From Acidimicrobiia bacterium (lineage in GTDB: Bacteria > Actinomycetota > Acidimicrobiia > IMCC26256 > PALSA-555), in NCBI GenBank assembly GCA_040881685.1, contig JBBECS010000016.1:62001-126000 (forward strand): a DNA stretch of 64,000 nt, in the 5' to 3' direction. This document shows positions 9,424-57,717 of this stretch, piece by piece. The translations under genes were made by a program, and so were the position numbers. The notes beneath the pieces are model-generated. The model was not told where the DNA came from. It saw nothing but the letters and a program-made list of their open reading frames with translations, and did not search any database. Each line of letters begins with the position of its first letter. The first letter of the stretch is position 1.

Positions 9424-9766
9424 CGTCCTCCTCGGGCTCGGGCGCGGCATCGACGCCGCGCCGGGCATGTGGGATCGCTTCGACCGCGGGCAGCAGCCCG
9501 AAGCCGGGACTCGTCAGCAGGATCGCGCCGAGCACCTCGTCCCAGGAGGCGCCGACCTCGCGCGCCAGCCGCGCGTGACGCGCGACGCCGGCCGGGTTGC
9601 GCAAGGCGACCGTGCACGCGAGCCGGATGAGCTCGTGGGTCTTGCGGTCGGGTGCACGGAGCGAGTCGATCTGGCTCAGCCACGCGTTCTGAGCCTCGTG
9701 GAGCGCGGGGAAGACCTCGTGCAGCGGGCCCTCGAAGGGGAAGCTCCAGTCGTCCCGGTGCGTCAT
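9410..9766 (-). CDS. Carboxymuconolactone decarboxylase-like (AhpD-fold) protein
   Basis: 118 residues of the CMD/AhpD-like helical fold: HELIRLACTVALRNPAGVARHARLAREVGASWDEVLGAILL matches the conserved core. The CxxC pair found in peroxidase-active members is absent (RNPAGVARH in its place), leaving only the histidine, so a disulfide-based peroxidase role is unlikely. It is embedded between two DUF35 genes with overlaps on both sides (14 bp and 4 bp), so it belongs to this catabolic operon; its reaction is unknown. Confidence 0.65.
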   Translation of the reverse strand: MTHRDDWSFPFEGPLHEVFPALHEAQNAWLSQIDSLRAPDRKTHELIRLACTVALRNPAGVARHARLAREVGASWDEVLGAILLTSPGFGLLPAVEAIPHARRGVDAAPEPEEDDGED

Positions 9767-10161: not shown

Positions 10162-10177
10162 GCGGCGCTCTTGATCG

Positions 10178-12037: not shown

Positions 12038-12050
12038 CCTCGACTGCTGC

Positions 12051-32667: not shown

Positions 32668-32686
32668 GCCGCTACGCACAAACAAC

Positions 32687-32730
32687 TGGAGGCGGCGGCG
32701 GGAATCGAACCCGCGTCCAGGGTTTTGCAG
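32687..32730 (-). repeat. att copy 4: tRNA-Cys 3' fragment
   Basis: 44 bp identical to the 3' half of the tRNA-Cys gene. The 13 bp to its left (CACAAACAACTGG region) equal those left of the intact tRNA. Its right arm (32731-32862) differs from the other three and ends with TTGATTCGCAA and TTGATTCGCAAG. Confidence 0.9.
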
Positions 32731-32835
32731 CGGCTCTAAGGCTGTCCGTCGAGTATCGCTGAGTCGCGTTACCGCTGCTCAGGTGCACTCTCTGTCCGTC
32801 TGATGCTGCCACGTGTCGGCGCGTATCGCCACGTT

Positions 32836-32863
32836 TGATTCGCAAATTGATTCGCAAGCGGCC
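32836..32863. repeat. Arm-type repeats TTCGCAA, left end of integrase unit
   Basis: Two direct repeats of GATTCGCAA in tandem. The same doublet occurs at about 35170-35193 between the integrase start and the tRNA. The two ends of this unit therefore share a repeat not found in the other units, as expected for binding sites of its own integrase. Confidence 0.6.
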
Positions 32864-32888
32864 TCCCGAAACCAGGCAATGTGTAGAC

Positions 32889-33296
32889 GTGCCGACAGTG
32901 ATCCATGGCGACGACGTGATGCCTCTTCTGCTCGTGGCTTGCCCGTCATTCACCGATGTTTGGAAGCAGATCGAATCCGAGAACGGGCCTGATTCGCCTG
33001 GTGAATCACGGCTTCACTACGTCGACGCCATTGAGTTCGCGGCGCATTTGGTTGGGCAGCTTCGTGCAGGAAACCGCACCGAGGTCAGCGCAGCGTTCGT
33101 GGTCATCGAACGGCTTCACCTAGAGGGCGATGCTTACGTGCGAGAACTCGCGACAATCGGCTATCTCGAGGGTCTCCTCGACCTCGACGACCCGGATCGA
33201 TTCAAGGAGTACCTCGGTCCCGAGAGCCAGAGGTGGTGGAGAGGACTTATCGCGTTCTGGTCCGGAAAGATCCCCACCGTCCAGGCAATCGACTGA
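32889..33296 (+). CDS. Small acidic protein resembling DUF7674
   Basis: 135 residues. The core MPLLLVACPSFTDVWKQIES, then YVDAIEFAAHLVGQL and FVVIERLHLEGDAYVRELAT and IGYLEGLLD resembles DUF7674, a family often seen in immunity-like or defence contexts; recognition is from memory and moderate. The frame opens at 32835, but that start lies in the att arm. GTG 32889 is preferred; ATG 32919 is also possible. Confidence 0.55.
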   Translation: MPTVIHGDDVMPLLLVACPSFTDVWKQIESENGPDSPGESRLHYVDAIEFAAHLVGQLRAGNRTEVSAAFVVIERLHLEGDAYVRELATIGYLEGLLDLDDPDRFKEYLGPESQRWWRGLIAFWSGKIPTVQAID

Positions 33297-33385
33297 GTGG
33301 AAACGGCCTCTTCTCGCGTTCGTCTGCACAGGTACTGGCACGAATATGGGGTGGCCCGATTACGGTTTCCGCCGTGCCACGAGAG

Positions 33386-33781
33386 ATGCCAACCGCGTTC
33401 GGGAAGCTCATGCTTCGTAAGCCGGTCCTCACCGCGGCGATCGCGTTCATCATGATTGCGATCATCGTCACAGGTTCAACGCGGGGCGACGACGATCTCG
33501 GCTCATGGGTCGGTTTCGTCGCGGCAGCCTTCATGCTGTACGGCGCAGCCCTGTCATGGTTCTTCCCGAAGATCGTCCATCGTTCGCCGGCAGATGTCAT
33601 CGAGGTAACGATGGCGAGCGCGATCAGCGCGGCGGGCATCGGTTTGGTTGCCTGGATCCTCGGGCAATCGGAGGGATTCCTTTTTGGCGGTGCCATCGAG
33701 AGCGCGGTATTGGTTGTCTACGTGCTCGTTCGTGCAACACGCGCAGACGCTGCCTCTGCAGTGAACCCATCGGAACCCTGA
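33386..33781 (+). CDS. Small membrane protein, unknown
   Basis: 131 residues with four short hydrophobic segments (PVLTAAIAFIMIAIIVTG, WVGFVAAAFMLYGAALSWFF, MASAISAAGIGLVAWILG, AIESAVLVVYVLVRAT). ATG 33386 has GAGAG nearby; the longer open frame overlaps the previous gene. No family recognised. Cargo of the integrase unit. Confidence 0.55.
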   Translation: MPTAFGKLMLRKPVLTAAIAFIMIAIIVTGSTRGDDDLGSWVGFVAAAFMLYGAALSWFFPKIVHRSPADVIEVTMASAISAAGIGLVAWILGQSEGFLFGGAIESAVLVVYVLVRATRADAASAVNPSEP

Positions 33782-33854
33782 CAGGCAGGACGAGCCAACC
33801 TTCCTCCTGCGCGCTCAGCAGCCACTTCGCCACGATCGAGTTGCATACACAATT

Positions 33855-33883
33855 GCAAGTTCCGCCCTCCGGGCGGAACTTGC
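33855..33883. other. Perfect 13-bp hairpin between cargo and integrase
   Basis: GCAAGTTCCGCCC and its exact reverse complement flank a 3-base loop TCC. It lies between the convergent membrane-protein and integrase genes, so it could be a bidirectional terminator, but no T-run follows on either side. A recombination-directionality or DNA-folding site is another option. Confidence 0.45.
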
Positions 33884-33981
33884 GTGGACGATGTGGTCGC
33901 GAAGGGGTCGACCACACGATGTTTTGCTCATCGTGAATTCCCTGCTGCCGCGCTTTGTGGCGCGCTCCCCTCATCGCGACC

Positions 33982-35157
33982 TCATCGCGCGGCCTCATCG
34001 CCGCGAGGATGAGCCTTCTTGAGCGCATCGCCGATCGCGTCGGCGGCGACGCGATCGAGGGCGCGGCGTCCGTGGGCATAGATCGATGTGGTCCGGATGT
34101 TCGAATGGCGGAGACGGTCGCGTACGACGGTCATGGGCACGCCGGCGGACGCGAGCTCGGTGCCGTGGAAGTGGCGCCAGTCGTGCAGGCGGATGTGGTC
34201 GAGACCGAGCTTCTTGCGGAGCCGCTCCCACTGCCCGCCGAAGTGGTCTGGGTGCCACGGCGCTCGTCCCCCGGGCTCAGGCGAAAACACGTACGAGTCG
34301 TCGTTGAAGGCGATGCCGAACGCGAATGCGTTCTCGATGGCTCGCACTCGGAAGCGCTGGAGCGTCTCGACGGTCTCGTTGTCGATCGCGAGACGCGCGT
34401 TCGCATGGGTCTTGGTGCCCTTCTCGAGGACCTGCGTGGGATCGATCTCGACTGGCGCAAGGCCGCGGTGCACATGGACGTCGCCGTTGTCGAGATCGAC
34501 GTCACACCAGTGCAGCGCGGCTGTCTCGCCGCGCCGTGTCCCCAGCGCGGCCGAGAGGCGGAGGAACACATGCAGCTCTTCGTCGAACTCCTGCGCAGCC
34601 TGGAGGGCGAGAGCAATCTCTTCCGGCTCGGGCGCCCGCATCGCCTTGAGGACCGCTCTCGGTGCGCGCACGTGGGCCAGCGGACTCACGGGCAGCCAAC
34701 CCCAGCGGACGGCCGTCGACAGGATCCCCGAGAGCAGCGTGTGGATCTTGCGCACCGTCAGCGGCGAGAGCGGCGGCGGGCCGGCCATCAACTTCGCGTA
34801 CCAACGCTCGATCTCGAGCGGCTTCAGCTTGTCGATGCGGCGCGAGCCGAACGTCGGCAGCACGTAGCGCCGGAGCATCCCTCGATACCCGATCCGCGTG
34901 TGCGGGCTCAGGTGGCTCGTGCACGCCTCCCACCATTCGTCGACGAGCTCGCTCAGTCTCGCTTTCGACGTCGACCGGGCCTGGCCGCTGTCGGCCGCGG
35001 TGATCAGCTGCGCGAGCCGCTTCTCGGCATCTCGGCGCGACCCACGGACGGTCTCCACGATGTATCTGCGCTTGCCGCTCCCGTCGACCCCGGCGTACAC
35101 GCGCAGCTCGTACGACGTGCCGCGCGATCCCTTCCGAACTCTGATGTGTCCTCGCAC
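33982..35157 (-). CDS. int: Tyrosine recombinase (integrase)
   Basis: 391 residues. An N-terminal arm-binding segment (GHIRVRKGSRGTSYELRVYAG), a SAM-like core-binding domain (about 66-155) and the catalytic domain. All catalytic residues are visible: R208 (GTRRGE), K249 (GTKTHA), H325 and R328 (LHDWRH), H351 (RLRHSN) and Y360 (TSIYAHG). The start lies 104 bp from the intact tRNA-Cys, the usual arrangement for tRNA-targeting elements. It is the only recombinase in the five-site array, so it either serves all units or the others lost theirs. Confidence 0.93.
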   Translation of the reverse strand: MRGHIRVRKGSRGTSYELRVYAGVDGSGKRRYIVETVRGSRRDAEKRLAQLITAADSGQARSTSKARLSELVDEWWEACTSHLSPHTRIGYRGMLRRYVLPTFGSRRIDKLKPLEIERWYAKLMAGPPPLSPLTVRKIHTLLSGILSTAVRWGWLPVSPLAHVRAPRAVLKAMRAPEPEEIALALQAAQEFDEELHVFLRLSAALGTRRGETAALHWCDVDLDNGDVHVHRGLAPVEIDPTQVLEKGTKTHANARLAIDNETVETLQRFRVRAIENAFAFGIAFNDDSYVFSPEPGGRAPWHPDHFGGQWERLRKKLGLDHIRLHDWRHFHGTELASAGVPMTVVRDRLRHSNIRTTSIYAHGRRALDRVAADAIGDALKKAHPRGDEAAR

Positions 35158-35159
35158 GA

Positions 35160-35260
35160 GGCCTCCGAGTGATTCGCAAATTTGATTCGCAAGTGCCCTG
35201 ACACGGCCTCACGACTTGCGTCACTCGGATCGGAACTGGCCTCTGAACTGCACAAACAAC
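35160..35260. repeat. Right arm of integrase unit
   Basis: Between the integrase start and the tRNA. Contains the doublet GATTCGCAAATTTGATTCGC (about 35170-35189), matching the arm repeats at 32836, and the 13 bp that adjoin the tRNA also adjoin att copy 4. Confidence 0.6.
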
Positions 35261-35335
35261 TGGAGGCGGCGGCGGGAATCGAACCCGCGTCCAGGGTTTT
35301 GCAGACCCTTGCCTGAGCCACTCGGCTACGCCGCC
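35261..35335 (-). tRNA. tRNA-Cys: tRNA-Cys (GCA), intact, attachment target
   Basis: 75 nt including an encoded CCA. The acceptor stem GGCGGCG pairs with CGCCGCC; the anticodon loop is CTGCAAA, anticodon GCA, in a 5-bp stem AGGGT/ACCCT; the T-arm is GCGGG/CCCGC with loop TTCGATT. The discriminator base is T (U73), the known identity base of tRNA-Cys. It is the only full tRNA among five copies of its 3' half. The array lies on its 3' side. Confidence 0.95.
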
Positions 35336-35348: not shown

Positions 35349-35993
35349 TTAGTGGGCCGGACGTCGAGCGACTCCGATGATGTGCGGTGCAACGGGCGCC
35401 GCGAAGATCGCCGGCCGGAACGTGAGCCGGCGGCTGCGCTCGATCTCGAATCCGGCATCGCCGATCGCTGCGGCCGTCTCACGGCTCGTGTGGCACCCAC
35501 CGAAGAGGTGCGGCCACATCACGTCGAGCGCGCGCTGCACCGAGCCAAGGACCGCGTTGGCCGACCGAACGTGCTCATAGAACCGGAGCTCGCCGCCGGG
35601 GCGCATGACCCGGCGCATCTCGGCGAGCGCCTTCGGGAGATCGCGCACGGAACACAGCATGAGTGACGCGACGACCGCGTCGAACGCGCCATCCGGTGCG
35701 GGCAGCTCACCTGCGGTGCCATCGACCACGGTCACCGTCACCGCCGCGTCGGCCGCAGCCTTCTCCGCGATCGCGCGCAGGTGCGGCTCGGGCTCGACCG
35801 CGAGCACCTCGGTCACCGTTGCGGGATAACGCTTGAAGTTCAGCCCGGTGCCAGCGCCGACCTCGATGACCCGTCCGGAGAGACCGGCAAGGAGCTCCTC
35901 GCGATGCTTGCGCGCGCCCGCGGCATCCATCTGTGGAGCGAAGCGCGAGTAGATCTTGGCGAAGATCGGGTGGCGAACCTGTTCTGCTCCCAC
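35349..35993 (-). CDS. Class I SAM-dependent methyltransferase
   Basis: 214 residues: HPIFAKIYSRFAPQMDAAG, motif I VIEVGAGTGLNFKRYP, VEPEPHLR, DAVVASLMLCSV and RRVMRPGGELRFYEHV. It belongs to the small UbiE/PMT-like type often acting on lipids or small molecules. GTG start; only 11 bp from the divergent quinoprotein start at 36005, so one promoter must lie inside one of the genes or transcripts are leaderless. Confidence 0.82.
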   Translation of the reverse strand: MGAEQVRHPIFAKIYSRFAPQMDAAGARKHREELLAGLSGRVIEVGAGTGLNFKRYPATVTEVLAVEPEPHLRAIAEKAAADAAVTVTVVDGTAGELPAPDGAFDAVVASLMLCSVRDLPKALAEMRRVMRPGGELRFYEHVRSANAVLGSVQRALDVMWPHLFGGCHTSRETAAAIGDAGFEIERSRRLTFRPAIFAAPVAPHIIGVARRPAH

Positions 35994-36004
35994 GACCCGA
36001 GGCT

Positions 36005-37972
36005 ATGCGGCCTACGATCCGACCCGTGCGCCTCGGAGGGAGGCGAACGGCAGGGTGCGTGCTCGCTCTTGCCGTGCTCGCCGCATGCTTGCTGCCAGCG
36101 TCAGGATCGTTCGGCGCCATTCGCCGCGACGTGCCGGCCAGCTCGTGCGACTGGCCCATGTGGGGTCGGACCATCGAGCGCACCTTCGCGACGGAGTGCC
36201 CCGGGCTCACTCCTGAGAACGCGGCCGACCTCAAGCGCATCTGGTTCTTCAACACGTTCGACGTGGTGACGGCCACGCCGGCAGTGGTCGGCAACACGGT
36301 GTACGTGGGTGACTGGTCAGGTCGCTTCTATGCGGTGCGCCGGTCGAACGGCAAGAAGAAATGGACGTACGCGACCAAGCCGCACGCACGCGTGTACGCC
36401 GGACAGATCGTCTCATCGGCCGCGGTCGAGCTCGTCGACGGCGTCCGCACCGTGTACTTCGGTGGCGGCAAGACGCTGTACGCGCTGCGAGCCCGCGACG
36501 GCAAGCTCCTCTGGAAGCACGAGATCGGCGCGCCAGGGGATGGCGCGGACTACTCCGAGATCGAATCCTCTCCGATCGTGGTCGACAACCTCGTCATCGT
36601 GGGGTGGGACGTGCACAACGATCCGAGTGGCCGCCCGGCGGGGGTGCTGGCGCTCGACGCGGCGACGGGCGAGGAGGCGTGGACCTCTGTACTGGCCCCG
36701 ACCGAGGGCGACAGCGCAACCGGCAGCGGCTGCGCCGATGTATGGGGTTCGCCCACCGTCGACATCGATCTGCGCTTCGTGTACGTGGGCACCGGCAACT
36801 GCGTCACCACCGAGGGGTGGGGACGCTTCGCGGAGGCAATCGTCGCGCTGCGACTCGACGACGGGTCGGTGGCGTGGTCCTACCAACCACACGAGCAGAA
36901 CAAGGACGACTTCGACTTCGCCGGCGCGCCCAACTTGTTCGAGACCGCGGACGGGCGCGCGCTCGTCGGGCTCGGCAACAAGGACGGCAACTACTACACC
37001 GTCGACCGCGCGACCGGCGAGGAGGTGTGGCAGACGCACGCCGCCGATGCCGGGCTACCCGAGCCGGGCAGCAACTTCTCGACTGGTGGGTTCATCGGAG
37101 GCACCGCGTACACCGAGGGCATCATCAGCGGCGGGACAGCAGTCGGCGGATCGCCGTTCCTCCATGCGCTCGACGCCACATCGGGCGAGATCATCTGGCA
37201 GCAGCCGGAGGCCGCCGCGACCTATGGCGCTGCCGCGGTGGCGAACGGCGTGCTCGTGATCGGCGGCACCGACTTCACGATCCGCGCGCTCGACGTCGCG
37301 ACCGGCGAGGTCCTGTGGCGCGAAGAGGTCAGCGGCGCGGTGTCCGGCGGCGCGGCGATTGTTGACGATGACGTCATCGCAGTGGCCGGGATCCGTGAGC
37401 CCGGCGTCGGAAATCGGAGTCGGACGAGCGGCGTCTACAAGTTCTCGCTGCACGGCAAGCCGGTCACGAGCACGACCGGCGAGACGAAGCCCGCACCCAC
37501 CGCAACCACCATCGCAGGGGCCATCCCCGACTGCGTCAAGGCGCCGTGCAACGTGGCGTTCGACCTCAAGCAGCCGCCGGCCGGCACGAACCCGACCATG
37601 ACACTCGAGCTCACGCTCGATCCGTGGCGCGCGGAGATCCGAACGACCGGGTTCGGGCCGCCCGAGACATGGCTGCGCGCGGGGAGCCCGGCTGCTACCG
37701 ACGGAGCCACTCGCTTCGGCGTGTTCATCTCCGAGAGCGACGACAACCCGCAGGGCGGGCTGCTCTGCATCTTGGAGGCCGACGGCTCGTGCGTGTCGTC
37801 GAAGATCCCACGACCCGGCGCGGCCTACAACCGCATCTCGGTGCTCGCGATCACCGATTCCGATGAGCTGCCGTCGACCGCACAAGGATTCGACCGGCTC
37901 GTGACCACCAAGTCGTTCAACCCGTTGCTCGTGCCGGTGGCCGGCAAGAGCAAGGGGAAGAAGAACAAGTAG
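36005..37972 (+). CDS. Exported PQQ-type beta-propeller protein
   Basis: 655 residues. Signal sequence with a possible lipobox VLAAC. Residues about 70-520 show repeated beta-propeller blades (VGNTVYVGDWSGRFYAVRRS, FGGGKTLYALRARDGKLLWK, LVIVGWDVHN, GVLVIGGTDFTIRALD) as in quinoprotein dehydrogenases and BamB-like folds. A C-terminal beta domain with KAPCNVAF, then LAITDSD, follows. Lys-rich tail. Whether it binds PQQ is unproven. 9 bp upstream of another exported propeller. Confidence 0.78.
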   Translation: MRPTIRPVRLGGRRTAGCVLALAVLAACLLPASGSFGAIRRDVPASSCDWPMWGRTIERTFATECPGLTPENAADLKRIWFFNTFDVVTATPAVVGNTVYVGDWSGRFYAVRRSNGKKKWTYATKPHARVYAGQIVSSAAVELVDGVRTVYFGGGKTLYALRARDGKLLWKHEIGAPGDGADYSEIESSPIVVDNLVIVGWDVHNDPSGRPAGVLALDAATGEEAWTSVLAPTEGDSATGSGCADVWGSPTVDIDLRFVYVGTGNCVTTEGWGRFAEAIVALRLDDGSVAWSYQPHEQNKDDFDFAGAPNLFETADGRALVGLGNKDGNYYTVDRATGEEVWQTHAADAGLPEPGSNFSTGGFIGGTAYTEGIISGGTAVGGSPFLHALDATSGEIIWQQPEAAATYGAAAVANGVLVIGGTDFTIRALDVATGEVLWREEVSGAVSGGAAIVDDDVIAVAGIREPGVGNRSRTSGVYKFSLHGKPVTSTTGETKPAPTATTIAGAIPDCVKAPCNVAFDLKQPPAGTNPTMTLELTLDPWRAEIRTTGFGPPETWLRAGSPAATDGATRFGVFISESDDNPQGGLLCILEADGSCVSSKIPRPGAAYNRISVLAITDSDELPSTAQGFDRLVTTKSFNPLLVPVAGKSKGKKNK

Positions 37973-37981
37973 GGAGAAGCA

Positions 37982-39148
37982 ATGAAGCGTGCACTGATGA
38001 CAGCTGTCGTGGTGACCGGATTGCTCGGCATCGTTGCCGCGTCGCCCGCGACCGCCGGCGGCAAGGAAGCCGGCACCGGGGTGATCGTGCTCAGCGGTCA
38101 GGGCAACGATCTCGACGCCTACAGCGGAACCGAGCCGTTCAAGCACCAGCTCGTGATCCAGAACCACAACGCCGACCCGAAGGGACGCGACATCAACGCG
38201 CAGATCTGCTTCTTCCCCGATGGGAAGACGTTCATCGCCGGCGAGGACACCGGCCAGCCCGACCCGCTCCAGGGGTGGGGCATCTTCAAGATGAAGGGCA
38301 CGAAGGTCGGCAAGCTCAAGACCAAGCAGATCGGCAAGCTCCAGCCCACGTACCAGGGCGCGAGCGACAACGCCGAGAACTACGGCTGCGGGATCCTGTC
38401 CGACGGCCGCGTCGTCACCTCCGACATCGGCAACCAGGCCGCCGGGCCTGAGAACGGTCAGCTCATCGTGTGGTTCCCACCCTTCACGGCCGGCTTCGAA
38501 GAGCTCGGCGCTCCCACGAACGGCACCAACGGCGACGTTCCGTTCTGCAAGATCGACATCGCCATCGGAACCGCGGGGAGCATCCAGATCGACAACGAGG
38601 ACCGCATCCTCGTGTCGTCTGCACGCGGCGCGACCACCGGTGTGCTGCGCTACACGGGACCGTTCCCCACGTCTGACGATGCTGAAGGCGGTTGCGGCAA
38701 GACCGACAGCACCGGCGCACCGCTGGCCGACAGCGTGACCAAAGAGCAGTTCATCGGCACCGACAACGAGCTGGCGACGCCGAATGGGCTCGCGCCAACC
38801 GGTGACGGTGGTTGGTACGTGGCGAGTGTGATCAACGGCCGCATCAACGAGTACGACGCCGACGGCAACTTCGTGCGCACCGTGCTCACCCCGCCCGCGG
38901 GTGAGGTGCTCGGGGCAGAGCCGTTCTCGACCGGGACACCGCTCGGGATCGGCGTCGCGCCCGACGGAACCCTCTATTACGCCGACATCAGCATCGTCAT
39001 CGACGGCACCAACATCGGCCCCGGCAACGGGACCGGCCGCGTGTTCCGGCTGCGCTTCGTCGACGGCGAGCCCCAGGCGCCCGAGCAGATGGCCGATGGC
39101 CTGGCCTTCCCGGACGGCATCGGCATCTACGTCCCCAAGAAGAAATGA
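37982..39148 (+). CDS. Secreted beta-propeller (SMP-30/NHL-like) protein
   Basis: 388 residues with a signal peptide (MKRALMTAVVVTGLLGIVAA, cleavage near ATAGGK). Repeats such as LSDGRVVTSDIGNQ, NEDRILVSSARG, TPNGLAPTGDGGWYVAS and GIGVAPDGTLYYADIS resemble SMP-30/gluconolactonase-like propellers. Ends PKKK like its neighbour ends KKNK. Probably acts with the upstream quinoprotein-like protein outside the membrane (inference). An AGGGAGAAGC site precedes the ATG. Confidence 0.75.
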   Translation: MKRALMTAVVVTGLLGIVAASPATAGGKEAGTGVIVLSGQGNDLDAYSGTEPFKHQLVIQNHNADPKGRDINAQICFFPDGKTFIAGEDTGQPDPLQGWGIFKMKGTKVGKLKTKQIGKLQPTYQGASDNAENYGCGILSDGRVVTSDIGNQAAGPENGQLIVWFPPFTAGFEELGAPTNGTNGDVPFCKIDIAIGTAGSIQIDNEDRILVSSARGATTGVLRYTGPFPTSDDAEGGCGKTDSTGAPLADSVTKEQFIGTDNELATPNGLAPTGDGGWYVASVINGRINEYDADGNFVRTVLTPPAGEVLGAEPFSTGTPLGIGVAPDGTLYYADISIVIDGTNIGPGNGTGRVFRLRFVDGEPQAPEQMADGLAFPDGIGIYVPKKK

Positions 39149-39200: not shown

Positions 39201-40622
39201 GTGACCCCCGGCGTGCAACTGCTGGCTGTCGGCGCGGCCGCGCCCGCGTGGCGCCTTGCTGCGTCTGAGGCCGCTGCCGCCTGGGGGCGCAAGGGCGGCA
39301 AGGGGCAGTCGGCCGTCTGTGCGCCCGACGAAGACGTCCTCACTCTCGCGGCCGAAGCGGCCACCCGGGCGCTCGCGGTCTCCGAGCTCCAGACCGACAT
39401 CGTCGACGGGCTCTGGTGGGGCACGTCACGCCCGCCGTTCGCCGAGGGTCCGAGCCATGCGGTGCTCGCCCGCGCGATCGGTCTCTCCCACCGTTCGAGC
39501 GGCGCGCTCTGCTCGGGCTCGCCGCACGCCGGCATGGAGGCGCTGCTCGGCGCCGCCGACGCGATCGGCGCCGGCTCCGCACGAGTGGCGCTCGTCGTGG
39601 TGTCCGATGCGATCGTGCCCGGGCTCGGCACGCCGTACGAGGCGCGCGCCGGAGCCGGCGCGGCTGCCGTCGTACTCGTCTCGCATGGTGGCGACGCCTC
39701 GATCGGCGCTCGCGTCACCCGCACGTTCCCCTTCCTCGATCGGTACCGCGGTGACGGCGAGAGCGGCACGCGAGACCTCTACGACGCCCGCCTGTTCCGC
39801 GAAGAGGTGTTCGTGCCGACGCTGCGTGAGCTCGGTGAGCAGCTCGCGGCGCTCGACGTGCGCGCGTGGTCGCTCCCCGATCCCGACGGTCGCCTCGGTG
39901 GCGTCGTCGCGAAGCAGCTCGGCACGTCGACCCCGGTGTCCGACGCGGTCTACACCGAGCTCGGCGACACCGGCGCCGCGGCTGCCTTGCTCGGCGGCAT
40001 CGGCGCGCTCGATGCGGCCGGGACGGTCGCGATCGTGGGTTGGGGTGGCGGACGCGCGACGGGGATCGAGATCAATGTGAAGTCGCCGGTGCGCGGCGCG
40101 GCCACCGTTGCGCACTCGATCACCGCCGGACGGCCTGCTTCCTATGCGGACGTGCTGCGCGCTCGCAACCAGCTCGTTGCGTCGGGTGAGACGGTGCAGA
40201 TGGCGGTCCCGCCCGAGAGCGCGCAGTTCGTGCGCGGCGCCGACGAGATGCTCGGCCTCATGGGCGCCCGGTGCGTGGACTGCGGCACCATCAATACCCC
40301 GCCGTCGATCCACCCGCATTGCACGTCGTGCGGCAGTGCGAAGTTCGTGCTCACCTCACTCGCCCGTCGCGGGAAGGTCCACACGTACGTAGTGAACCAC
40401 ACGATGCCCGCGCCGTTCGTCGCGCCACTCCCGATCGCGGTGATCGATCTCGAAGACGGCGCGCGCGTGATGCTCCAGGTCGTGGGCGACGGGTCCGATC
40501 TTGCGGTCGGTTCCGACGTCGAGCTGGTGCTGCGGAAGTACGCGCACGAGCGTGGCGTACCTGTCTACGGCTACAAGGCGCGCGCTACCGATGGGCCGGT
40601 CGAGGTGGAGGAAGCCGAATGA
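39201..40622 (+). CDS. HMG-CoA-synthase-like domain fused to DUF35
   Basis: 473 residues. Residues 1-340 form a thiolase-superfamily condensing domain with the HMGS-like DEDVLTLAAEAATRAL and a candidate nucleophile Cys 104 (SSGALCSGSPHAG). Residues about 350-470 are a DUF35 with zinc ribbon (CVDCGTINTPPSIHPHCTSC) and OB-fold. In some archaea thiolase, HMG-CoA synthase and DUF35 form a channelling complex; here two parts are fused and the thiolase is the next gene, overlapping by ATGA. True substrate unknown. GTG start. Confidence 0.8.
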   Translation: MTPGVQLLAVGAAAPAWRLAASEAAAAWGRKGGKGQSAVCAPDEDVLTLAAEAATRALAVSELQTDIVDGLWWGTSRPPFAEGPSHAVLARAIGLSHRSSGALCSGSPHAGMEALLGAADAIGAGSARVALVVVSDAIVPGLGTPYEARAGAGAAAVVLVSHGGDASIGARVTRTFPFLDRYRGDGESGTRDLYDARLFREEVFVPTLRELGEQLAALDVRAWSLPDPDGRLGGVVAKQLGTSTPVSDAVYTELGDTGAAAALLGGIGALDAAGTVAIVGWGGGRATGIEINVKSPVRGAATVAHSITAGRPASYADVLRARNQLVASGETVQMAVPPESAQFVRGADEMLGLMGARCVDCGTINTPPSIHPHCTSCGSAKFVLTSLARRGKVHTYVVNHTMPAPFVAPLPIAVIDLEDGARVMLQVVGDGSDLAVGSDVELVLRKYAHERGVPVYGYKARATDGPVEVEEAE

Positions 40623-41797
40623 GCTGGAACCGGGTCGCGGTCGTGGGCGCCGGGCTCATCAAGTTCGGCGAGCTGTTCGAGCAGAGCTACGAGCAGATGG
40701 CCTCCGACGCCTTCTCGGCCGCGGTGGAAAGCGTGGACGCCGGCTTCGAGCCCGAGCAGGTCGAGGCCGCGTTCGTGGCCACGCAACGCGGCACCCTCTG
40801 GGGTCAAGAAGGCATCGGCGGCAACACGATCCCGTCAGCCATCGGGCTGTCAGGCATTGCCTGCACCCGCATCGAGAACGCCTGCCCGTCAGGGTCCGAC
40901 GCCTTTCGCGTCGGGGCGATGGCCGTGGCGAGCGGTGTGCACGACGTCGTGCTCGTGATCGGCGTCGAGAAGATGCGGGACAAGTCGACCGAAGAGGGCC
41001 TGCTGGCACGCGCCGCGTCCGGCCATCCGATCTTCACTCGTGGCGAGACCGCGCCCGTGCTGTTCGCTCCGTTCGCCACCCGTCACATGCACGACTTCGG
41101 CACGACGCGCGAGATGCTCGCATCCGTTGCCGTGAAGAACCACCACAACGGCGCGCTCTGCCCGTACGCGCACTTCCAGAACGAGATCACCATCGAGGAC
41201 GTGCTGGCGTCGGCGCCGGTCTGCCACCCGCTCCACCTCCTCGACTGCTGCCCCCAGACCGACGGCGCCGCGGCGGTGCTCCTCGTGAACGCCGACCGCG
41301 CTGAGCAGTTCACCGACAAGCCGGTGTACGTGGCCGGCTTCGGCGTGGCGACCGACCACCCGTACCTGCACGAGAAGACGAGCTTCACCTCGCTGAAGGC
41401 CACGCAGATGGCAGCCGAACGTGCCTACGCGATGGCCGGCGTCGAGCCAGGGCAGATCGACATGGCAGAAGTCCACGACTGCTTCACGATCACCGAGATC
41501 CTCGACATCGAAGACCTCGGCTTCGTCGACAAGGGCAAGGGCGGCGTCGCCTCACTCGACGGGGAGACATCGCTCACGGGTCGCATCCCGATCAACACGT
41601 CGGGTGGACTGCTCGCCAAGGGTCACCCGATCGGCGCGACCGGCGTCGCGCAGCTCACCGAGTGCTGGTGGCAGCTGCGGGGCGAGGCCGACGCCCGCCA
41701 GGTGGAGATGCGCAATGGGTACGCGCTCCAGCACAACGTGGGCGGTCGCGGCTCCGGCGTCTCGGTCGTGAACATCCTCACCAACAACCGGCCCTGA
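40619..41797 (+). CDS. Thiolase (SCP-2 type)
   Basis: 392 residues. Nucleophile Cys 89 in ENACPSG and the His motif GGLLAKGHPIGATG are intact. The third position reads LQHNVGGRGSG, a His-Asn form seen in SCP-x-type thiolases in place of Cys-Gly. So it should be a catalytically competent thiolase, unlike the Ltp-type gene at 7674. Coupled to the HMGS-like/DUF35 fusion upstream and followed by an enoyl-CoA hydratase. Confidence 0.87.
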   Translation: MSWNRVAVVGAGLIKFGELFEQSYEQMASDAFSAAVESVDAGFEPEQVEAAFVATQRGTLWGQEGIGGNTIPSAIGLSGIACTRIENACPSGSDAFRVGAMAVASGVHDVVLVIGVEKMRDKSTEEGLLARAASGHPIFTRGETAPVLFAPFATRHMHDFGTTREMLASVAVKNHHNGALCPYAHFQNEITIEDVLASAPVCHPLHLLDCCPQTDGAAAVLLVNADRAEQFTDKPVYVAGFGVATDHPYLHEKTSFTSLKATQMAAERAYAMAGVEPGQIDMAEVHDCFTITEILDIEDLGFVDKGKGGVASLDGETSLTGRIPINTSGGLLAKGHPIGATGVAQLTECWWQLRGEADARQVEMRNGYALQHNVGGRGSGVSVVNILTNNRP

Positions 41798-41809: not shown

Positions 41810-42607
41810 GTGACCGTTCGCTACGAGGTCGGGGCCGACCATGTCGGTCGCATCACGCTCGACCGCCCCGAGGCCAAGAACGCGCTCACCGTCGAGATGC
41901 GCGACGCCATCGTCGACGCGGTTCGCTCGGCACGCGGCGACGACAACGCGCGCGCGTTGCTCATCACTGGGGTGGGCAACGCCTTCTGCGCCGGCATGGA
42001 CCTCAGCGCGTCGACACTCGCGAAGGCGTCAGAGCCAGGGTTCAACAATCGGAGCACCGCCGAGGCGCTGCGCGTCGGGGTGCAGTCCTTCATCCGCGAG
42101 CTGTGGGAGCTCGACAAGCCGACGGTGGCCGCCGTGAACGGCGCTGCGGTCGGTCCGGGCGCGCACCTCGCCATCGCGTGTGACTTCGTGCTCGTGCACG
42201 ACGAGACGCGGTTCATGTGGTCGTTCGCCAAGATCGGGCTGGTGGTCGATGCCGGCGGTGCGTACCTGTTGCCGCGGCTCGTGGGCCTTCCCCGCGCCAA
42301 GGCGATGGTGTTGCTCGGCGAAGGCGCCAAGGGCGCGGAAGCGGTCGCCCTCGGGCTCGCATACCAGTGCGTCGCGCCCGCCGAGCTCGCGTCAGCCGCG
42401 GACGACCTGGCCGTGCGCCTCGCGGCCGGGCCCACCCGCTCGCTCGGGCTCTCGAAGCGGCTGCTCAATGCAAGCTTCGAGACCGACCTCGCGCACTCCC
42501 TCGACGTCGAGGGTTCGTTCCAGGCCCTCGCGGCGACGTCAGCCGATCTGGCGGAGGGCATGGCCGCGTTCACGGAGCGGCGCGACCCGAAGTTCACCGG
42601 CGGCTGA
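41810..42607 (+). CDS. Enoyl-CoA hydratase/isomerase family protein
   Basis: 265 residues, crotonase fold: AFCAGMDLS oxyanion region, NGAAVGPGAHLAIACD and FAKIGLVVDAGGAYLLPRLVG. The two Glu of classic hydratases are missing; the second is replaced by the Asp of DAGG, as in PaaG-like isomerases. So isomerase-type chemistry is more likely than simple hydration. GTG start 12 bp after the thiolase. Confidence 0.83.
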   Translation: MTVRYEVGADHVGRITLDRPEAKNALTVEMRDAIVDAVRSARGDDNARALLITGVGNAFCAGMDLSASTLAKASEPGFNNRSTAEALRVGVQSFIRELWELDKPTVAAVNGAAVGPGAHLAIACDFVLVHDETRFMWSFAKIGLVVDAGGAYLLPRLVGLPRAKAMVLLGEGAKGAEAVALGLAYQCVAPAELASAADDLAVRLAAGPTRSLGLSKRLLNASFETDLAHSLDVEGSFQALAATSADLAEGMAAFTERRDPKFTGG

Positions 42608-44619: not shown

Positions 44620-45528
44620 ATGGGGCTCTTCGACGGCAAGGTTGCAATCGTCACTGGCGCGGGCCGTGGCATCGGGCGCGAAGAGGCGCTCCTGCTCGCC
44701 CGCGAGGGTGCGTCCGTGGTGGTCAACGACGTGGGTGGCGCACGCTCGGGCGAGGGCAGCGACACGACTCCCGCGCAAGAGGTGGTCGACGAGATCGAGA
44801 AGGCGGGCGGCAACGCCGTCGCCAACTACGACGACATCTCGTCGTGGACGGGCGGCGAGGCCGTCGTCAACCAGGCCGTGAGCGACCTCGGCGGGCTCGA
44901 CATCCTCGTGAACAACGCCGGCATCCTCCGGGACAAGATGAGCTTCAACATGTCCGAGGAGGAATGGGACGCAGTCATCCAAGTCCATCTCAAGGGCCAC
45001 TTCGTCCCCAGCCGCTTCGCCGGCGCCTACTGGCGTCAGAAGAGCAAGGACACCGGCGAACCGGTGAACGCCAAGATCGTGAACACGTCGTCCGAGGCTG
45101 GCCTGTACGGCAACGCCGGGCAGCTCAACTACGCCGCGGCGAAGGCCGGGATCGCGGCCATGACGATCGTGCTCGCGCGTGAGCTCGAGCGTTTCGGCGT
45201 GCGCTCGAACGCCATCGCGCCGGTCGCGCTCACCCGGCTCACCGAAGACCTGATGGGCGGTCAGGCCGACGAGAAGACCCGCGCCGCGCTCGACCCGGCC
45301 AACGTGGCCGCCGGTGTCGGCTGGCTCGCGTCCGACCTGTCGGAAGGCGTCACGGGCCAGGTGCTCAAGATCCAAGGCGGGCTGCTCCAGATCGTGCAGG
45401 GCTGGCGCCCGGTGTCGAACGTGAAGAGCGACGGATCCTGGACGATCGAGTCGATCGACGAGGTCAAGAAGAAGCTCTTCGCCGACAGCGACCCCGGCGT
45501 GCCGCCGTTCCTCCTCGCGGCTCCCTAG
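44620..45528 (+). CDS. SDR of the multifunctional-enzyme (3-hydroxyacyl-CoA) type
   Basis: 302 residues. VTGAGRGIGREEALLLAREG cofactor loop, then VVNDVGGARSGEGSDTTPAQ, a signature of the dehydrogenase part of peroxisomal MFE-2/HSD17B4-like enzymes. NNAGILRDKMSFNM, NTSSEAGLYGNAGQLNYAAAK give the active site. Probably a 3-hydroxyacyl-CoA dehydrogenase. Start ATG after GGAGCGGAC. Heads an operon with the two dehydrogenases. Confidence 0.88.
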   Translation: MGLFDGKVAIVTGAGRGIGREEALLLAREGASVVVNDVGGARSGEGSDTTPAQEVVDEIEKAGGNAVANYDDISSWTGGEAVVNQAVSDLGGLDILVNNAGILRDKMSFNMSEEEWDAVIQVHLKGHFVPSRFAGAYWRQKSKDTGEPVNAKIVNTSSEAGLYGNAGQLNYAAAKAGIAAMTIVLARELERFGVRSNAIAPVALTRLTEDLMGGQADEKTRAALDPANVAAGVGWLASDLSEGVTGQVLKIQGGLLQIVQGWRPVSNVKSDGSWTIESIDEVKKKLFADSDPGVPPFLLAAP

Positions 45529-45537: not shown

Positions 45538-46740
45538 ATGCACCTCACCTGGGGCCCGGAGGAGGTCGCGTTCCGCGAGGAGCTCGGCGCGTTCCTCGAC
45601 GAGCACGTACCGCCCGAGTTCGAGCGCGGCTTCGACTACGCGGGCGAAGGCGGGGAAGTCGGTGACGACGGGCAACTCGACGCCGACAACATCATCCCCG
45701 ACTGGGCGCGACGTTGGCAGGCAACGCTCTTCGACCACGGTTGGATGATCCCGGCGTACCCACCGGAGCTCGGCGGGCGGAACGCAACCCTCGTGCAGAC
45801 GCTCGTGTACCTCGAGGAGCTAGCGCGCCGACGTGTGCTGCGCTCGTTCCACTACCCCGGCTACGGCATCGTCTCGCCGAGCCTGCTCGAGTTCGGCAAC
45901 GAGGAGCAGAAGAAGCTCGTGCCGGCTGCCGTCCGCGGCGACACGATCTGGTGCATCGGCATGAGCGAGCCGAACGCAGGGTCCGATCTCGCCGGGCTCC
46001 AGACGCGCGCCACGCGCGACGGTGACCGCTTCATCGTCAACGGTCAGAAGGTGTGGACGAGCTACGCCATGGTGGCGCAGAAGTGCTTCGTGTATGTGCG
46101 CACCGACGCTGACGTGCCCAAGCACAAGGGCATCAGCCTGCTGATCGTCGACATGGACACGCCCGGCATCGAGGTTCGGCCGCTGCGCCACCTCAGCCGT
46201 TCCGCGGGGTTCGCGGAGGTGTTCTTCACCGATGTGGAGGTGCCGGCGGAGAACATCGTGGGCGAGGTCAACGACGGTTGGCGCATCACGCAGGGTTCGC
46301 TTGCGCACGAGCGGGCCGGGCTGTGGGTCGAGGGTGTGTGCCGTCTCGACGCGAGCGTGCTCAGTCTCATCGACGTCGCTCAGCGGCGCGGTCTCGACCA
46401 GGACGCGGGCGTCCGCCGAGACATCGCCACGATGTACGAGCAGGCGTCATCGCTGCGCGCGCTCGGCTACAAGGGCTTCGCGTCGTTCGCCCAGGGCTCG
46501 TCGGCGCCCGAGCACTCCTACATGAAGATGGCGACGTCCGAGATGGGCAAGGCCGCGTGCGAGTACGGCATGCAGCTCCAGGGTGCGTACGGACCCGTGA
46601 TGGACCCCGAACGCGGGGAAGAAAACGGCCGTTGGGTGAACTACTTCTTCATGAGCTTCGCCAACACGATCGCCGGCGGCTCCTCGGAGATCCAGCGCAA
46701 CATCATCGCCCAGCGCGTGCTCGGGCTTCCTCGATCGTGA
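45538..46740 (+). CDS. Acyl-CoA dehydrogenase, large-type subunit
   Basis: 400 residues with WCIGMSEPNAGSDLAGLQTR, GQKVWTSYAMVAQKCF and C-terminal GGSSEIQRNIIAQRVLGLPRS. Closely like the product of 5238-6431 in architecture. 9 bp after the SDR and followed by a second, smaller dehydrogenase; together a FadE pair. Confidence 0.9.
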   Translation: MHLTWGPEEVAFREELGAFLDEHVPPEFERGFDYAGEGGEVGDDGQLDADNIIPDWARRWQATLFDHGWMIPAYPPELGGRNATLVQTLVYLEELARRRVLRSFHYPGYGIVSPSLLEFGNEEQKKLVPAAVRGDTIWCIGMSEPNAGSDLAGLQTRATRDGDRFIVNGQKVWTSYAMVAQKCFVYVRTDADVPKHKGISLLIVDMDTPGIEVRPLRHLSRSAGFAEVFFTDVEVPAENIVGEVNDGWRITQGSLAHERAGLWVEGVCRLDASVLSLIDVAQRRGLDQDAGVRRDIATMYEQASSLRALGYKGFASFAQGSSAPEHSYMKMATSEMGKAACEYGMQLQGAYGPVMDPERGEENGRWVNYFFMSFANTIAGGSSEIQRNIIAQRVLGLPRS

Positions 46741-46795: not shown

Positions 46796-47818
46796 GTGGA
46801 TTTCTCGTTCTCCGACGACCAGGTGCTCCTGCGTGACACGGCGCGCGCCATCCTCTCGAAGGAGTGCCCGCCGTCCCTGGTGCGCGCGCACATCGACGAT
46901 CCCGCCGCGGTCGCACCGCTGTGGTCGCAGCTGAAGGACTTCACGGCGCTGGGCGACGGACCGTGCACCGATCTCTGCCTGTTCATCGACGAGACCGGGT
47001 ACGTCGCGGCGCCCGGCGTGTTCTTCCCGACGACGGCGATGTTCGCGCCGCTACTCGCCGCACTGGATCACGAGCTGCTGCCGAGCGTCCTCTCGGGTGA
47101 GGTCACCGGCACGGTTGCCGTGGCCGGTGCGGATGGCCACTGGACATTGAACGACGAGCCGGTGAAGACCTTCGTCCCCGAGGCCGACCGCGTCGATTGG
47201 ATCGCCGTCGTCGACACGGGCCCCACGGTGCGCGTGCTTCCGGCTGCGGACGTGGCGACGCGCCAGACGCGCATGGTCGACTTCTCACGTCTTTTCTTCG
47301 AGGTGGACACGACGGGCACGCCCGGCTCCGGCGTCGGGCTGGATCCGGCGGTGTTCAACGACCTCACGGCCCGGGCCACGGCCGCGTTGGCCGCCGAGAT
47401 GGTTGGGACGTCCCGCCGGCTGCTCGAGATGGCGATCGCGTACGCCAAGGAGCGGATCCAGTTCGACGTTCCCATCGGCTCGTTCCAGGCGATCCAGCAC
47501 CGCCTCGCCGAGTGCTCGCTCGCGGTCGAGCGGGCCACCGCGGCGGCGCAGTACGCGTCGATGACACTCGACGCGTCTGATGCCGAGCTTTCGTCCTCAC
47601 AAGAGAGATTCCGCGCCGTGCACGTCGCCAAGGCTGCGGCAGGAAATGCGGCCACTCGGGCGGCCAAGGATTCGATCCAGGTCCATGGGGGCATCGGATA
47701 CACGTGGGAGCACGACCTGCACCTCTATCTACGTCGAGCGGTGGGATCGGAGCACTGGCTCGGTACGACGTCGTGGCACCACGATCGCCTCGCTGATCTC
47801 CTGTTCAAGGCCCGATAG
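46796..47818 (+). CDS. Acyl-CoA dehydrogenase, small-type subunit
   Basis: 340 residues: DFSFSDDQVLLRDTARAIL start, GSFQAIQHRLAECSLAVERA, then HGGIGYTWEHDLHLYLRRA typical of small FadE partners. Active-site base position not obvious, as in other small subunits. GTG 46796 directly after the intergenic repeat. Partner of the preceding gene. Confidence 0.87.
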   Translation: MDFSFSDDQVLLRDTARAILSKECPPSLVRAHIDDPAAVAPLWSQLKDFTALGDGPCTDLCLFIDETGYVAAPGVFFPTTAMFAPLLAALDHELLPSVLSGEVTGTVAVAGADGHWTLNDEPVKTFVPEADRVDWIAVVDTGPTVRVLPAADVATRQTRMVDFSRLFFEVDTTGTPGSGVGLDPAVFNDLTARATAALAAEMVGTSRRLLEMAIAYAKERIQFDVPIGSFQAIQHRLAECSLAVERATAAAQYASMTLDASDAELSSSQERFRAVHVAKAAAGNAATRAAKDSIQVHGGIGYTWEHDLHLYLRRAVGSEHWLGTTSWHHDRLADLLFKAR

Positions 47819-47859: not shown

Positions 47860-48653
47860 ATGCCCGAGATGAAGAGGTACGACGCCGGAACACCGTGCTG
47901 GATCGAGCTGTCCACTACCGACATCGAAGCCGCGAAGAAGTTCTACGGCGACGTGCTGGATGGAAGGACTACGAAGTCGGCGGCGAAGACACCGGCAACT
48001 ACACGACACCGAAGCTCGACGGTCGCCGAGTCGCCGGGATGATGACGCAGATGGAAGAGCAGAAGAACATGGGCGTTCCGCCGAACTGGGCCACCTATGT
48101 GAGCGTGGCGAGCGCGGACGACACGGCGAAGAAGGTCGCTGGTCTCGGCGGCACCGTCATCGTCGAGCCGATGGACGTCATGGACTTCGGGCGCATGGCG
48201 GTCTTCCTCGACACCGAGGGTGCCGCGATCTGCGCGTGGCAGGCGAACCAGCACCATGGCTCAGAAGTTGTGAACGAGCCTGGCGCGTTCTGCTGGAGCG
48301 AGCTGTACGCGAAGGACCGCGACAAGGCCAAGGCGTTCTACAGCGGCTTGTTCGGGTGGAAGCCGGAGACCCACGAAGGTCCGATGGACTACACGGAGTG
48401 GAAGGTCGGAGACCGCTCGGTCGGCGGGATGATCCAGATCACCGACGAGATGGGTCCGATCCCCCCGAACTGGCTGACGTACTTCTCCGTGACCGACACC
48501 GACACGGCGACCGAAACGGCGAAGAAGGCCGGCGGCTCAGCGATGATGGGGCCGATGGACATCCCCGACGTCGGCCGCTTCGCAATCCTGGCCGACGGCC
48601 AAGGCGCGGTGTTCGCCGTCATCAAGATGGCCGACGCCCACGAGACGTCCTAG
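47860..48653 (+). pseudogene. Two-domain VOC/glyoxalase-like gene with one frameshift
   Basis: Starts MPEMKRYDAGTPCWIELSTT, then IEAAKKFYGDVLD; the frame is lost near 47958 and continues in the next frame as GWKDYEVGGEDTGNYTTPKL. A second VOC repeat follows (FCWSELYAKDRDKAKAFYSG, LFGWKPE). Adding one G in CTGGATGGAAG restores CTG-GGA-TGG-AAG and one 264-residue two-domain protein. A single-base change in a short G run may be a sequencing error. The rest of the frame has no further damage. AGGAGG precedes the ATG. Confidence 0.8.
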
Positions 48654-50185
48654 ATCTGCGACTCCCGGCCGGTCCAATGCTGGTCGCGTAGGACGCGCTT
48701 GAGCACCTTGCCGTTGGGCTGACGGGGGAGCTCGTCGACGAGCTCGACGGTCGCGGGCACCTTGAAGTCGGCGAGATGCGCGACGCAGTGCTCGCGTAGC
48801 TCGTCTGGAGTCGTGACGTCGCGGACCTCCACCACCGCGTGGAGCTGCTCACCGAGGCGATCGTCGGGCACGCCGAACACCGCGCAGTCCACGACGGCTG
48901 GGTGCGTGTGCAATACCTCCTCGATCTCGCGTGGGTACACGTTCACACCACCGCGGATCACCATGTCGGAGGCGCGGTCAGTGAGATAGAGATAGCCATC
49001 GGCGTCGACGTGGCCGACATCGCCGACCGTGAAACCAGCGTCCCTCCATGCGTCGGCCGTCTTCGCCGGATCATCGTGGTAGTGGAACCTCACTTCACCG
49101 GGCGGACGTATGTAGATGACACCGTCATCGCCCGTCGGGACCGCGTTGCCGTCAGCGTCGAGGATGTGCACTTCCACGCCCGGCCACGGGGTGCCCACGC
49201 TGCCTGGGCGCTCCAGCCACTGCGCGGCATTGATGCGGGTGGCCCCGCCCTCGCTCGCGCCGTACACCTCTGAGATCTCACACGGTGTGAGCGCGTCGAT
49301 GATGCGGCGCTTCACCGGGATCGGGCAGGGCGCACCCGCGTGCACCAACAGCCGGAGCGACGAGAGGTCGCGGACGGCGCGCTCAGCCTCTGGCACTTCG
49401 AGGATCCGGATGAAGTGGGCCGGTACCACGAAGCTGCAGGTGACCCGGTGCGTCTCGACCAACCGCAGCCATTCGTGCGCGTCGAACATCTCCAACACGA
49501 CGGTGGGCGCGCCAACGTACAGCGCGGCCATCGCCCAGCCGCCGGGACCCGCGTGATACGCCGGACCCGAGAGGATGTACACGTCGTCGGCCGACCAGTT
49601 CCACAGCGCGAGCTGACCTTCCATGTTGCGGCTCGCGGCTCCGGGGTCGGGCTTGCCGTGGATCACACCCTTGGGCCGGCCCGTGGTGCCCGACGTGTAG
49701 AACACCGGCGCGGTGAGCGCCTCGAGCTCGACCGGCGGCGCGTCGTCGGAGGCATCGGCGATGGCGGACTCGTAGCCGCGGTCGCCGCCCTCCCCCACGA
49801 CCAGCACGGCGGCTCCGGTGGCTTTGACGGCGGGGGTGAAGTGCTCTTCGAGCTGGGCGTGCGCCACCAGCACACGCGATCCCGAGTCCTCGAGGATGTA
49901 CGCCAGCTCCTCGGTCTTGAGGTGCCAGTTCACGAGCACGACGGAGGCGTTGAGCTTGTTGCTCGCGGCCCACGCCTCGAAGAACTCGACACTGTTCGGC
50001 AGCATGATCGCCACCCGGTCGCCCTCGCCGATGCCGAGAGCAGCCAGCACGTGGGCCAGGCGCGTCGTGCGGGCATCGAACTCGGCGTACGTGCGCACGT
50101 CGTCGCCACAGAAGAACGCCGGGCGGTCCGGCTCCGTGCGCGCCCACGCTGTCATGCCAAGGGTGGTCATACCAAGGGTGGTCAT
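48650..50185 (-). CDS. AMP-forming acyl-CoA synthetase
   Basis: 511 residues of the ANL superfamily: P-loop-like APVFYTSGTTGRPKGVIHG, EVYGASEGG (A5), GDVGHVDADGYLYLTDRASD (A7/A8) and PRQPNGKVLKR with the A10 Lys. The N-terminus begins with a tandem duplication MTTLG-MTTLG-MTAW, so three ATGs are available; the outermost gives a 4-base overlap with the amine oxidase gene. Convergent with the VOC gene through shared CTAG stops. Activates an acid of unknown type. Confidence 0.88.
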   Translation of the reverse strand: MTTLGMTTLGMTAWARTEPDRPAFFCGDDVRTYAEFDARTTRLAHVLAALGIGEGDRVAIMLPNSVEFFEAWAASNKLNASVVLVNWHLKTEELAYILEDSGSRVLVAHAQLEEHFTPAVKATGAAVLVVGEGGDRGYESAIADASDDAPPVELEALTAPVFYTSGTTGRPKGVIHGKPDPGAASRNMEGQLALWNWSADDVYILSGPAYHAGPGGWAMAALYVGAPTVVLEMFDAHEWLRLVETHRVTCSFVVPAHFIRILEVPEAERAVRDLSSLRLLVHAGAPCPIPVKRRIIDALTPCEISEVYGASEGGATRINAAQWLERPGSVGTPWPGVEVHILDADGNAVPTGDDGVIYIRPPGEVRFHYHDDPAKTADAWRDAGFTVGDVGHVDADGYLYLTDRASDMVIRGGVNVYPREIEEVLHTHPAVVDCAVFGVPDDRLGEQLHAVVEVRDVTTPDELREHCVAHLADFKVPATVELVDELPRQPNGKVLKRVLRDQHWTGRESQI

Positions 50186-51657: not shown

Positions 51658-51713
51658 CCGGCTATTCCGGGCTCAAAGACGCACCCTGATCTGGTGGCCG
51701 ATACGGTCGATCC

Positions 51714-54064: not shown

Positions 54065-54080
54065 GGCGAGACTGGGGACG

Positions 54081-57699: not shown

Positions 57700-57717
57700 A
57701 GGTTATGGTGGGCTGAC

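Follow-up and report, generated by a model that had tools for sequence, protein, structure and literature searches.

In the stretch of DNA analysed here, 64,000 nucleotides from an Acidimicrobiia bacterium (contig JBBECS010000016.1; hereafter the window), one gene encodes a protein in which a domain resembling 3-hydroxy-3-methylglutaryl-CoA (HMG-CoA) synthase, or HMGS, is joined to a DUF35 module, and this gene is followed directly by a thiolase gene. We propose, with a probability of roughly 0.6, that the fusion protein is a non-catalytic pseudo-HMGS/DUF35 partner of the thiolase, and that the two would form a complex that thiolyses 3-ketoacyl-CoA in beta-oxidation. We infer the complex, its thiolytic direction and its pathway from the analysis described below. 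The genes and domains concerned are these:

39201–40622, plus strand: fused HMGS-like/DUF35 protein, GTG start, 473 amino acids (aa)
39207–40181, plus strand: predicted HMGS-fold domain, residues about 3–327; S76, P108 and P226 at the aligned catalytic Glu, Cys and His positions
40242–40580, plus strand: DUF35 module, residues about 348–460; zinc ribbon with Cys358, 361, 374 and 377, and an OB fold
40619–41797, plus strand: SCP2-type thiolase, ATG start, 392 aa; near archaeal acetoacetyl-CoA thiolase, with Cys89, HDCF (286–289) and GHP (335–337) intact

The fused gene and its distribution

An earlier description of this DNA, made from the letters alone (the sequence-only reading), had placed the HMGS-like domain and DUF35 in one polypeptide. 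This is borne out by the 473-aa open reading frame and by fused frames in dozens of genomes, so that the fusion is real and not an artefact of assembly. The same description had the thiolase gene coupled by a 4-bp overlap. In the window the 3' end of the fusion gene and the 5' end of the thiolase gene do share 4 bp, ATGA, but the overlap is not universal: it is seen at 27 of 46 loci, whereas the spacing is -1 at five, 0–20 bp at 13 and 64 bp at one.

A scan of contigs gave 48 fusion loci, mainly in records titled as Acidimicrobiia or as metagenome-assembled genomes (MAGs) of Actinomycetota; other records are from Mycobacterium nebraskense, M. pinniadriaticum and Actinobacteria bacterium IMCC26207 (L087), and one is titled Acidobacteria. 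Four loci with orthologues of 54–93% identity beside window-like genes (L040, L048, L077 and L078) lie in records titled as Bifidobacterium breve MAGs, titles that are probably wrong. The thiolase is found directly downstream of the fusion by a scripted scan at 46 of the 48 loci; of the remaining two, L044 has a thiolase on inspection and the contig of L086 ends inside the fusion gene. The HMGS, DUF35 and thiolase modules of a complex of the type seen in the archaeal structure 6ESQ are thus encoded together. Long open frames had suggested a natural triple fusion that would include the thiolase, a candidate that we rejected because, at the loci retrieved, the thiolase is separate wherever it is called next to the fusion.

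Within the order, 53 of 58 genomes have some match at E 1e-3, counting those to DUF35 only, and 42 of the 58, the source genome included, have orthologues (58–100% identity, some in pieces). Matches become sparser at wider range, with 30 of 148 genomes in the class at E 1e-30 and 24 of 396 in the phylum at E 1e-20, the latter mostly more distant relatives. The source genome (3.1 Mb) holds two more fused paralogues at 28–29% identity, and loci L088–L107 encode a separate HMGS-DUF35 fusion family of about 26–30% identity. Matches that stop short of residue 455 were excluded (5 of 68 loci: L086, L090, L091, L092 and L105), which left 16 of the 20 paralogous loci to be scored, four having been dropped by this length filter. 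An adjacent thiolase was scored by script at 15 of the 16, and the sixteenth (L100) has one at 11162–12352, which starts about 20 bp past the fusion match.

Predicted fold of the two parts of the fusion protein

The HMGS-like part has no Pfam match at E 1e-3, and its score against the NCBIfam archaeal HMGS model, 93.8 bits, lies under the cut-off of 244. It does match the archaeal HMGS chain 6esq_I, with E values of 3e-12 by phmmer and 1e-41 by profile. The whole fusion chain was modelled with AlphaFold2 from a 35-row alignment (mean pLDDT 87.2, pTM 0.89), and the predicted fold superimposes on 6esq_J with a Z score of 42.2 and 2.0 A over 322 residues, followed by PhlA-type chains (Z 39–40), MucA (38) and MvaS (35.7). 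As modelled, the N-terminal domain has the HMGS/KAS III fold of the thiolase superfamily. The ratio of nonsynonymous to synonymous substitution rates (dN/dS) of this domain is 0.067–0.075 against three close relatives (L040, L041 and L042), similar to those of DUF35 and the thiolase, and 0.199 against the more distant L045; against L043 it is saturated. Judged from these ratios, which are low like those of the DUF35 domain and the thiolase, the HMGS-like domain is under purifying selection and is not decaying.

The C-terminal part is a genuine DUF35, consisting of a four-cysteine zinc ribbon followed by an OB fold. Both of its parts pass their Pfam cut-offs, OB_ChsH2_C with 38.3 against 27.1 bits and zf-ChsH2 narrowly, with 23.9 against 23.2. 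The four zinc cysteines (358, 361, 374 and 377) are kept in all 46 orthologues that have letters there, though in only 7 of 15 fused paralogues. Folded alone, the domain gives a model of pLDDT 80 and pTM 0.70 that matches the DUF35 chains of 6ESQ, PhlABC, MucABC, BbsAB, Ltp2-ChsH2, Sal-Shy and the factor Trf with Z scores of 11–13 (12.7 for 6esq_F); SSO2064 comes at 7.8 and the matches after it at about 6. The top Foldseek match of this model is BbsA, with an E value of 1.2e-8.

The HMGS catalytic positions are replaced

Residues were mapped by profile alignment to 6esq_I, in which Glu82 falls at residue 76 of the fusion protein, Cys114 at 108, and His238, whose place is taken from this alignment and which we take to be the catalytic histidine, at 226. 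A passage of PMC6392133 names Glu82 and Cys114 as catalytic in the archaeal HMGS. Counts were made over 46 orthologues together with the window sequence, of which 44 have letters at the HMGS sites; for one orthologue, split over frames (L081, genome G030), only the C-terminal piece enters the counts. The catalytic cysteine is found in none of the 44, position 108 being Pro in 19, Thr in 13, Ala in 10, Ser in one and Gln in one, nor is the catalytic glutamate, position 76 being Ser in 22, Thr in 20, Cys in one and Gly in one. The histidine is likewise absent from all 44, each of which has Pro at 226; in the window protein the three residues are S76, P108 and P226. The fused paralogues have Cys at 108, Glu at 76 and His at 226 in 0 of 15 each. 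Eleven additional fused proteins found by searching the class and phylum (from 11 of the 23 other genomes matched in the phylum search; two are orthologues) likewise lack Glu, Cys and His at the three aligned positions, without exception.

With three catalytic positions replaced in the orthologues, the HMGS site looks dead, and on the alignment the protein is not to be classed as a functional HMG-CoA synthase, the relationship being one of fold and homology only. The sequence-only reading had singled out Cys104 as the residue whose conservation should be checked. It is present in the window protein, but a cysteine stands there in only 14 of 44 orthologues, and we rejected it as the HMGS nucleophile because it is not conserved and lies four residues before the position aligned with Cys114 (108). 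Loss of Cys104 in homologues, which that reading had regarded as fatal to its interpretation, is what we find; it counts against an active HMGS only, and leaves the fusion and the partnership with the thiolase standing.

The thiolase and its neighbourhood

The thiolase is nearest to the archaeal acetoacetyl-CoA thiolase 6esq_A (8e-82), PhlC being a far weaker match (5e-31). It scores 437 bits against the NCBIfam model PRK06064, for which the cut-off is 420, and 405 against the Methanothermococcus equivalog, for which it is 600. Cys89 is conserved in 47 of 47 sequences, HDCF in 45 of 45 and GHP in 43 of 43, counting those that have letters at the site concerned. We presume Cys89 to be the nucleophile and HDCF and GHP to be catalytic motifs, and in the alignment the thiolase keeps them intact. 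It probably serves as 3-ketoacyl-CoA thiolase in a beta-oxidation operon, the downstream genes of which are as follows:

41810–42607, plus strand: enoyl-CoA hydratase/isomerase family protein (ECH), the next gene at 36 of 39 orthologous loci
44620–45528, plus strand: short-chain dehydrogenase/reductase (SDR) family oxidoreductase, candidate 3-hydroxyacyl-CoA dehydrogenase (PRK07791, 381.8 against a cut-off of 373)
45538–46740, plus strand: acyl-CoA dehydrogenase 1 (ACAD1); closest model pimC large subunit, below cut-off
46796–47818, plus strand: acyl-CoA dehydrogenase 2 (ACAD2); closest model IpdE2, below cut-off
48650–50185, minus strand: acyl-CoA synthetase, which may serve this pathway as its activating enzyme

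Where the sequence continues for 900 bp or more past the thiolase, the ECH gene lies within 150 bp of it at 36 of 39 loci, the exceptions being the two mycobacteria and L085. When limits on identity and distance are applied, the SDR gene is found downstream at 19 of 31 loci and ACAD1 and ACAD2 at 15 of 29 each, and the acyl-CoA synthetase gene is downstream at 5 of 29 or upstream at 5 of 26. With these neighbours, the remaining reactions of beta-oxidation could be covered. The degradative setting that had been suggested from the letters is thus upheld by the beta-oxidation-type genes downstream.

The window also contains, at 5238–10606, an Ltp2-like retro-aldolase cluster with genes for two acyl-CoA dehydrogenases, an Ltp2-type thiolase-fold protein (best PDB match 6ok1_A, 8e-57), two DUF35 proteins, a small CMD-family protein and a HadB-like hydratase, and a P450 gene follows at 10688. 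These Ltp2-like neighbours hint, weakly, at steroid-like side chains as substrates. When full aerobic steroid degradation was looked for in the source genome, a KshA_C match was found (102 bits against a cut-off of 23.3) and no match to the BphC_D1 extradiol dioxygenase domain.

Other genes around the fusion were noted in passing. Just upstream (35933–39148) are genes for a pyrroloquinoline quinone (PQQ)-type beta-propeller protein and an SMP-30/NHL-like protein, relatives of which occur upstream within 7 kb at 7 and 8 of 26 loci respectively. Before these, at 32676–35304, is a small integrated element with a tyrosine integrase gene (33982–35157, minus strand) beside tRNA-Cys (35261–35335); a 55-bp perfect direct repeat at 32676–32730 and 35250–35304 spans the 3' part of the tRNA. 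On the other side, the genes at 50182–55043 may form a polyamine set: with NCBIfam scores that stay under the cut-offs, they encode an amine oxidase-family protein, a pyridoxal phosphate (PLP) decarboxylase and relatives of agmatine deiminase and N-carbamoylputrescine amidase. They are followed at 55879–59781 by a hydantoinase B/A pair, caprolactamase-like and below cut-offs, and a hydantoinase B gene of 84–87% identity lies downstream of the fusion at seven loci. In the source genome as a whole a large CoA-transferase-family set gives 26 matches to one CaiB-type CoA-transferase model, none above cut-off.

Comparison with known complexes

The fused counterpart of the archaeal thiolase/DUF35/HMGS complex that the sequence-only reading had envisaged is supported by the comparison, as the 6ESQ chains are the best or nearly the best match for each part. 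The same three homologous modules are present (8e-82 for the thiolase, Z 42.2 for the HMGS fold and Z 12.7 for DUF35), but HMGS and DUF35 are separate chains in 6ESQ and fused here. The archaeal HMGS has its Cys114 and Glu82, whereas the catalytic positions are replaced in the fusion protein.

PhlACB (PDB 5M3K/5MG5; relative 9SKH) combines an HMGS-like subunit lacking the Cys and Glu (fold Z 39–40) with a DUF35 bridge and a catalytic thiolase subunit. It is a multicomponent Friedel-Crafts acyltransferase that is biosynthetic and CoA-independent and is built from three separate chains, whereas in the window the counterparts of PhlA and PhlB form one chain and the setting is one of beta-oxidation. 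Passages of PMC6392133 state that acyl transfer involves residues of PhlC alone, that PhlA is without the Cys and Glu, and that PhlA is thought necessary for assembly. The MucABC acyltransferase (PDB 9VBO/9VBT) likewise has an HMGS-like fold (Z 38) and a DUF35-like subunit, although as separate chains, and C-3 acetylation of a tetramate is proposed for it in a passage of PMC10161427.

The benzoylsuccinyl-CoA thiolase BbsAB (PDB 7PXP) similarly pairs a thiolase with a DUF35-type partner, but BbsA, at 146 aa, is DUF35-sized and without an HMGS-like part. BbsAB functions in anaerobic toluene degradation. The steroid aldolases Ltp2-ChsH2 and Sal-Shy (PDB 6OK1 and 9MYR) also pair a thiolase-fold enzyme with a two-domain protein that includes DUF35; the other domain of that protein, however, is a hydratase of the MaoC type, and the enzyme paired with it acts as a retro-aldolase through different catalytic residues. 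DUF35 fusions to members of the thiolase superfamily were mentioned in general terms in 2010 (in a passage of PMC2954200), and among the papers listed in searches of the open-licence literature no title or abstract dealt with an HMGS-DUF35 fusion. What we describe varies an enzyme complex that is already known and does not amount to a new type of system, and the earlier interpretation as a whole is partly supported.

A model for the complex and its alternatives

In the model that we favour, the DUF35 module would dock the fusion protein onto the thiolase dimer to give a thiolase/DUF35/pseudo-HMGS assembly, PhlC/PhlB/PhlA-like or archaeal-like, with two of the subunits in one chain. Chemistry would be confined to the thiolase, at Cys89 with the HDCF and GHP motifs, while both parts of the fusion protein probably keep the dimer together and enclose the cavity for CoA and substrate. 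The thiolase would then cleave 3-ketoacyl-CoA with CoA as the last step of the beta-oxidation set encoded downstream. We suggest a scaffolding role because of the analogy with PhlACB, in which only PhlC acts, and because DUF35 proteins serve as scaffolds in general, as a passage of PMC12329534 states.

Several observations weigh against this model. The ECH gene does not adjoin the two mycobacterial copies, and the SDR gene is missing at 12 of 31 loci and each ACAD gene at 14 of 29. Around the M. nebraskense copy lie genes of the extradiol dioxygenase, CoA-transferase and flavin types (in L071:2073–20414, genes for a BphC-type extradiol dioxygenase and for acetyl-CoA hydrolase/transferase-type, luciferase-like, FAD monooxygenase-like, second thiolase and MaoC-like proteins). 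As the neighbours vary in this way, different lineages may have different pathways. In the paralogues a Glu occurs at position 77 in 3 of 15 and a His at 229 in 14 of 15, one and three residues off the aligned sites; a shifted histidine may, on the alignment, survive there, and for the paralogues only the loss of the cysteine is firm. Finally, Ser107, His109, Asp227, Asp229 and Asp256 are invariant beside the old active site in the 44 orthologues with letters, and invariance of this kind would seem to exceed the obvious needs of a pure scaffold.

These five residues are the starting point for two related proposals. One is that the pocket has been repurposed in the orthologue clade, with new catalysis or binding on Ser107, His109, Asp227, Asp229 and Asp256 making the complex bifunctional; His109 is one residue past the old Cys position and Asp227 and Asp229 are just after the old His position. 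We regard this as unlikely, since the paralogues, in which most of the five differ, use other residues, so that there would be no common new chemistry, and invariance within one clade can be structural. The other, which we hold to be just as doubtful, is that the degenerate HMGS-DUF35 protein is a bifunctional or substrate-gating subunit whose rebuilt pocket handles a bulky acyl chain, giving a new two-site beta-oxidation enzyme.

A biosynthetic C-acyltransferase like PhlACB or MucABC, in which an acyl group bound to Cys89 would be moved to a carbon nucleophile and the pseudo-HMGS and DUF35 parts would be assembly subunits, is suggested by the acyltransferase identity of two of the solved assemblies nearest in fold, and by the lack of the HMGS Cys and Glu that the fusion protein shares with PhlA. 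We nevertheless consider it quite unlikely, as the fusion lies among catabolic genes of the beta-oxidation type and not far from one for an acyl-CoA synthetase, no polyketide synthase is among the annotated neighbours in the window, and the thiolase is closer to the archaeal acetoacetyl-CoA thiolase than to PhlC.

Improbable, too, is a retro-aldolase like those of Ltp2-ChsH2 and Sal-Shy, acting on steroid-like side chains. Both Ltp2 and Sal have DUF35 partners, and genes like those of the Ltp2 cluster do occur less than 10 kb upstream of the fusion, albeit at few loci (DUF35a at 5 of 31 and Ltp2 itself at 2 of 31). However, the nucleophilic Cys, HDCF and GHP are all present in the fusion-linked thiolase, whereas in the alignment the Ltp2-like protein of the window and TcLtp2 lack them, and Sal and Ltp2 are reported, in the abstract of PMC12329534, to use other residues. 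An active thiolase/HMG-CoA synthase pair that channels acetoacetyl-CoA into HMG-CoA, as the sequence-only reading had described for archaea, is highly improbable notwithstanding a fold and gene set like those of the archaeal complex, since the Cys, Glu and His positions are all replaced, and no match in the source genome lies above the archaeal HMGS model cut-off (the bacterial MvaS model was not tried).

Implications for the family

The HMGS catalytic cysteine is absent from every fused HMGS-DUF35 protein that was scored, namely 44 orthologues, 15 paralogues and 11 further relatives, and such genes should not be annotated as HMG-CoA synthases. The model that we favour makes the testable claim that, in Actinomycetota, catabolic thiolases have kept a protein of HMGS fold as their structural or gating partner, in a role like that of PhlA in biosynthesis. 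As a natural two-chain version, the pair described here would lend itself more readily than the three-chain complexes to a study of what a dead HMGS subunit contributes.

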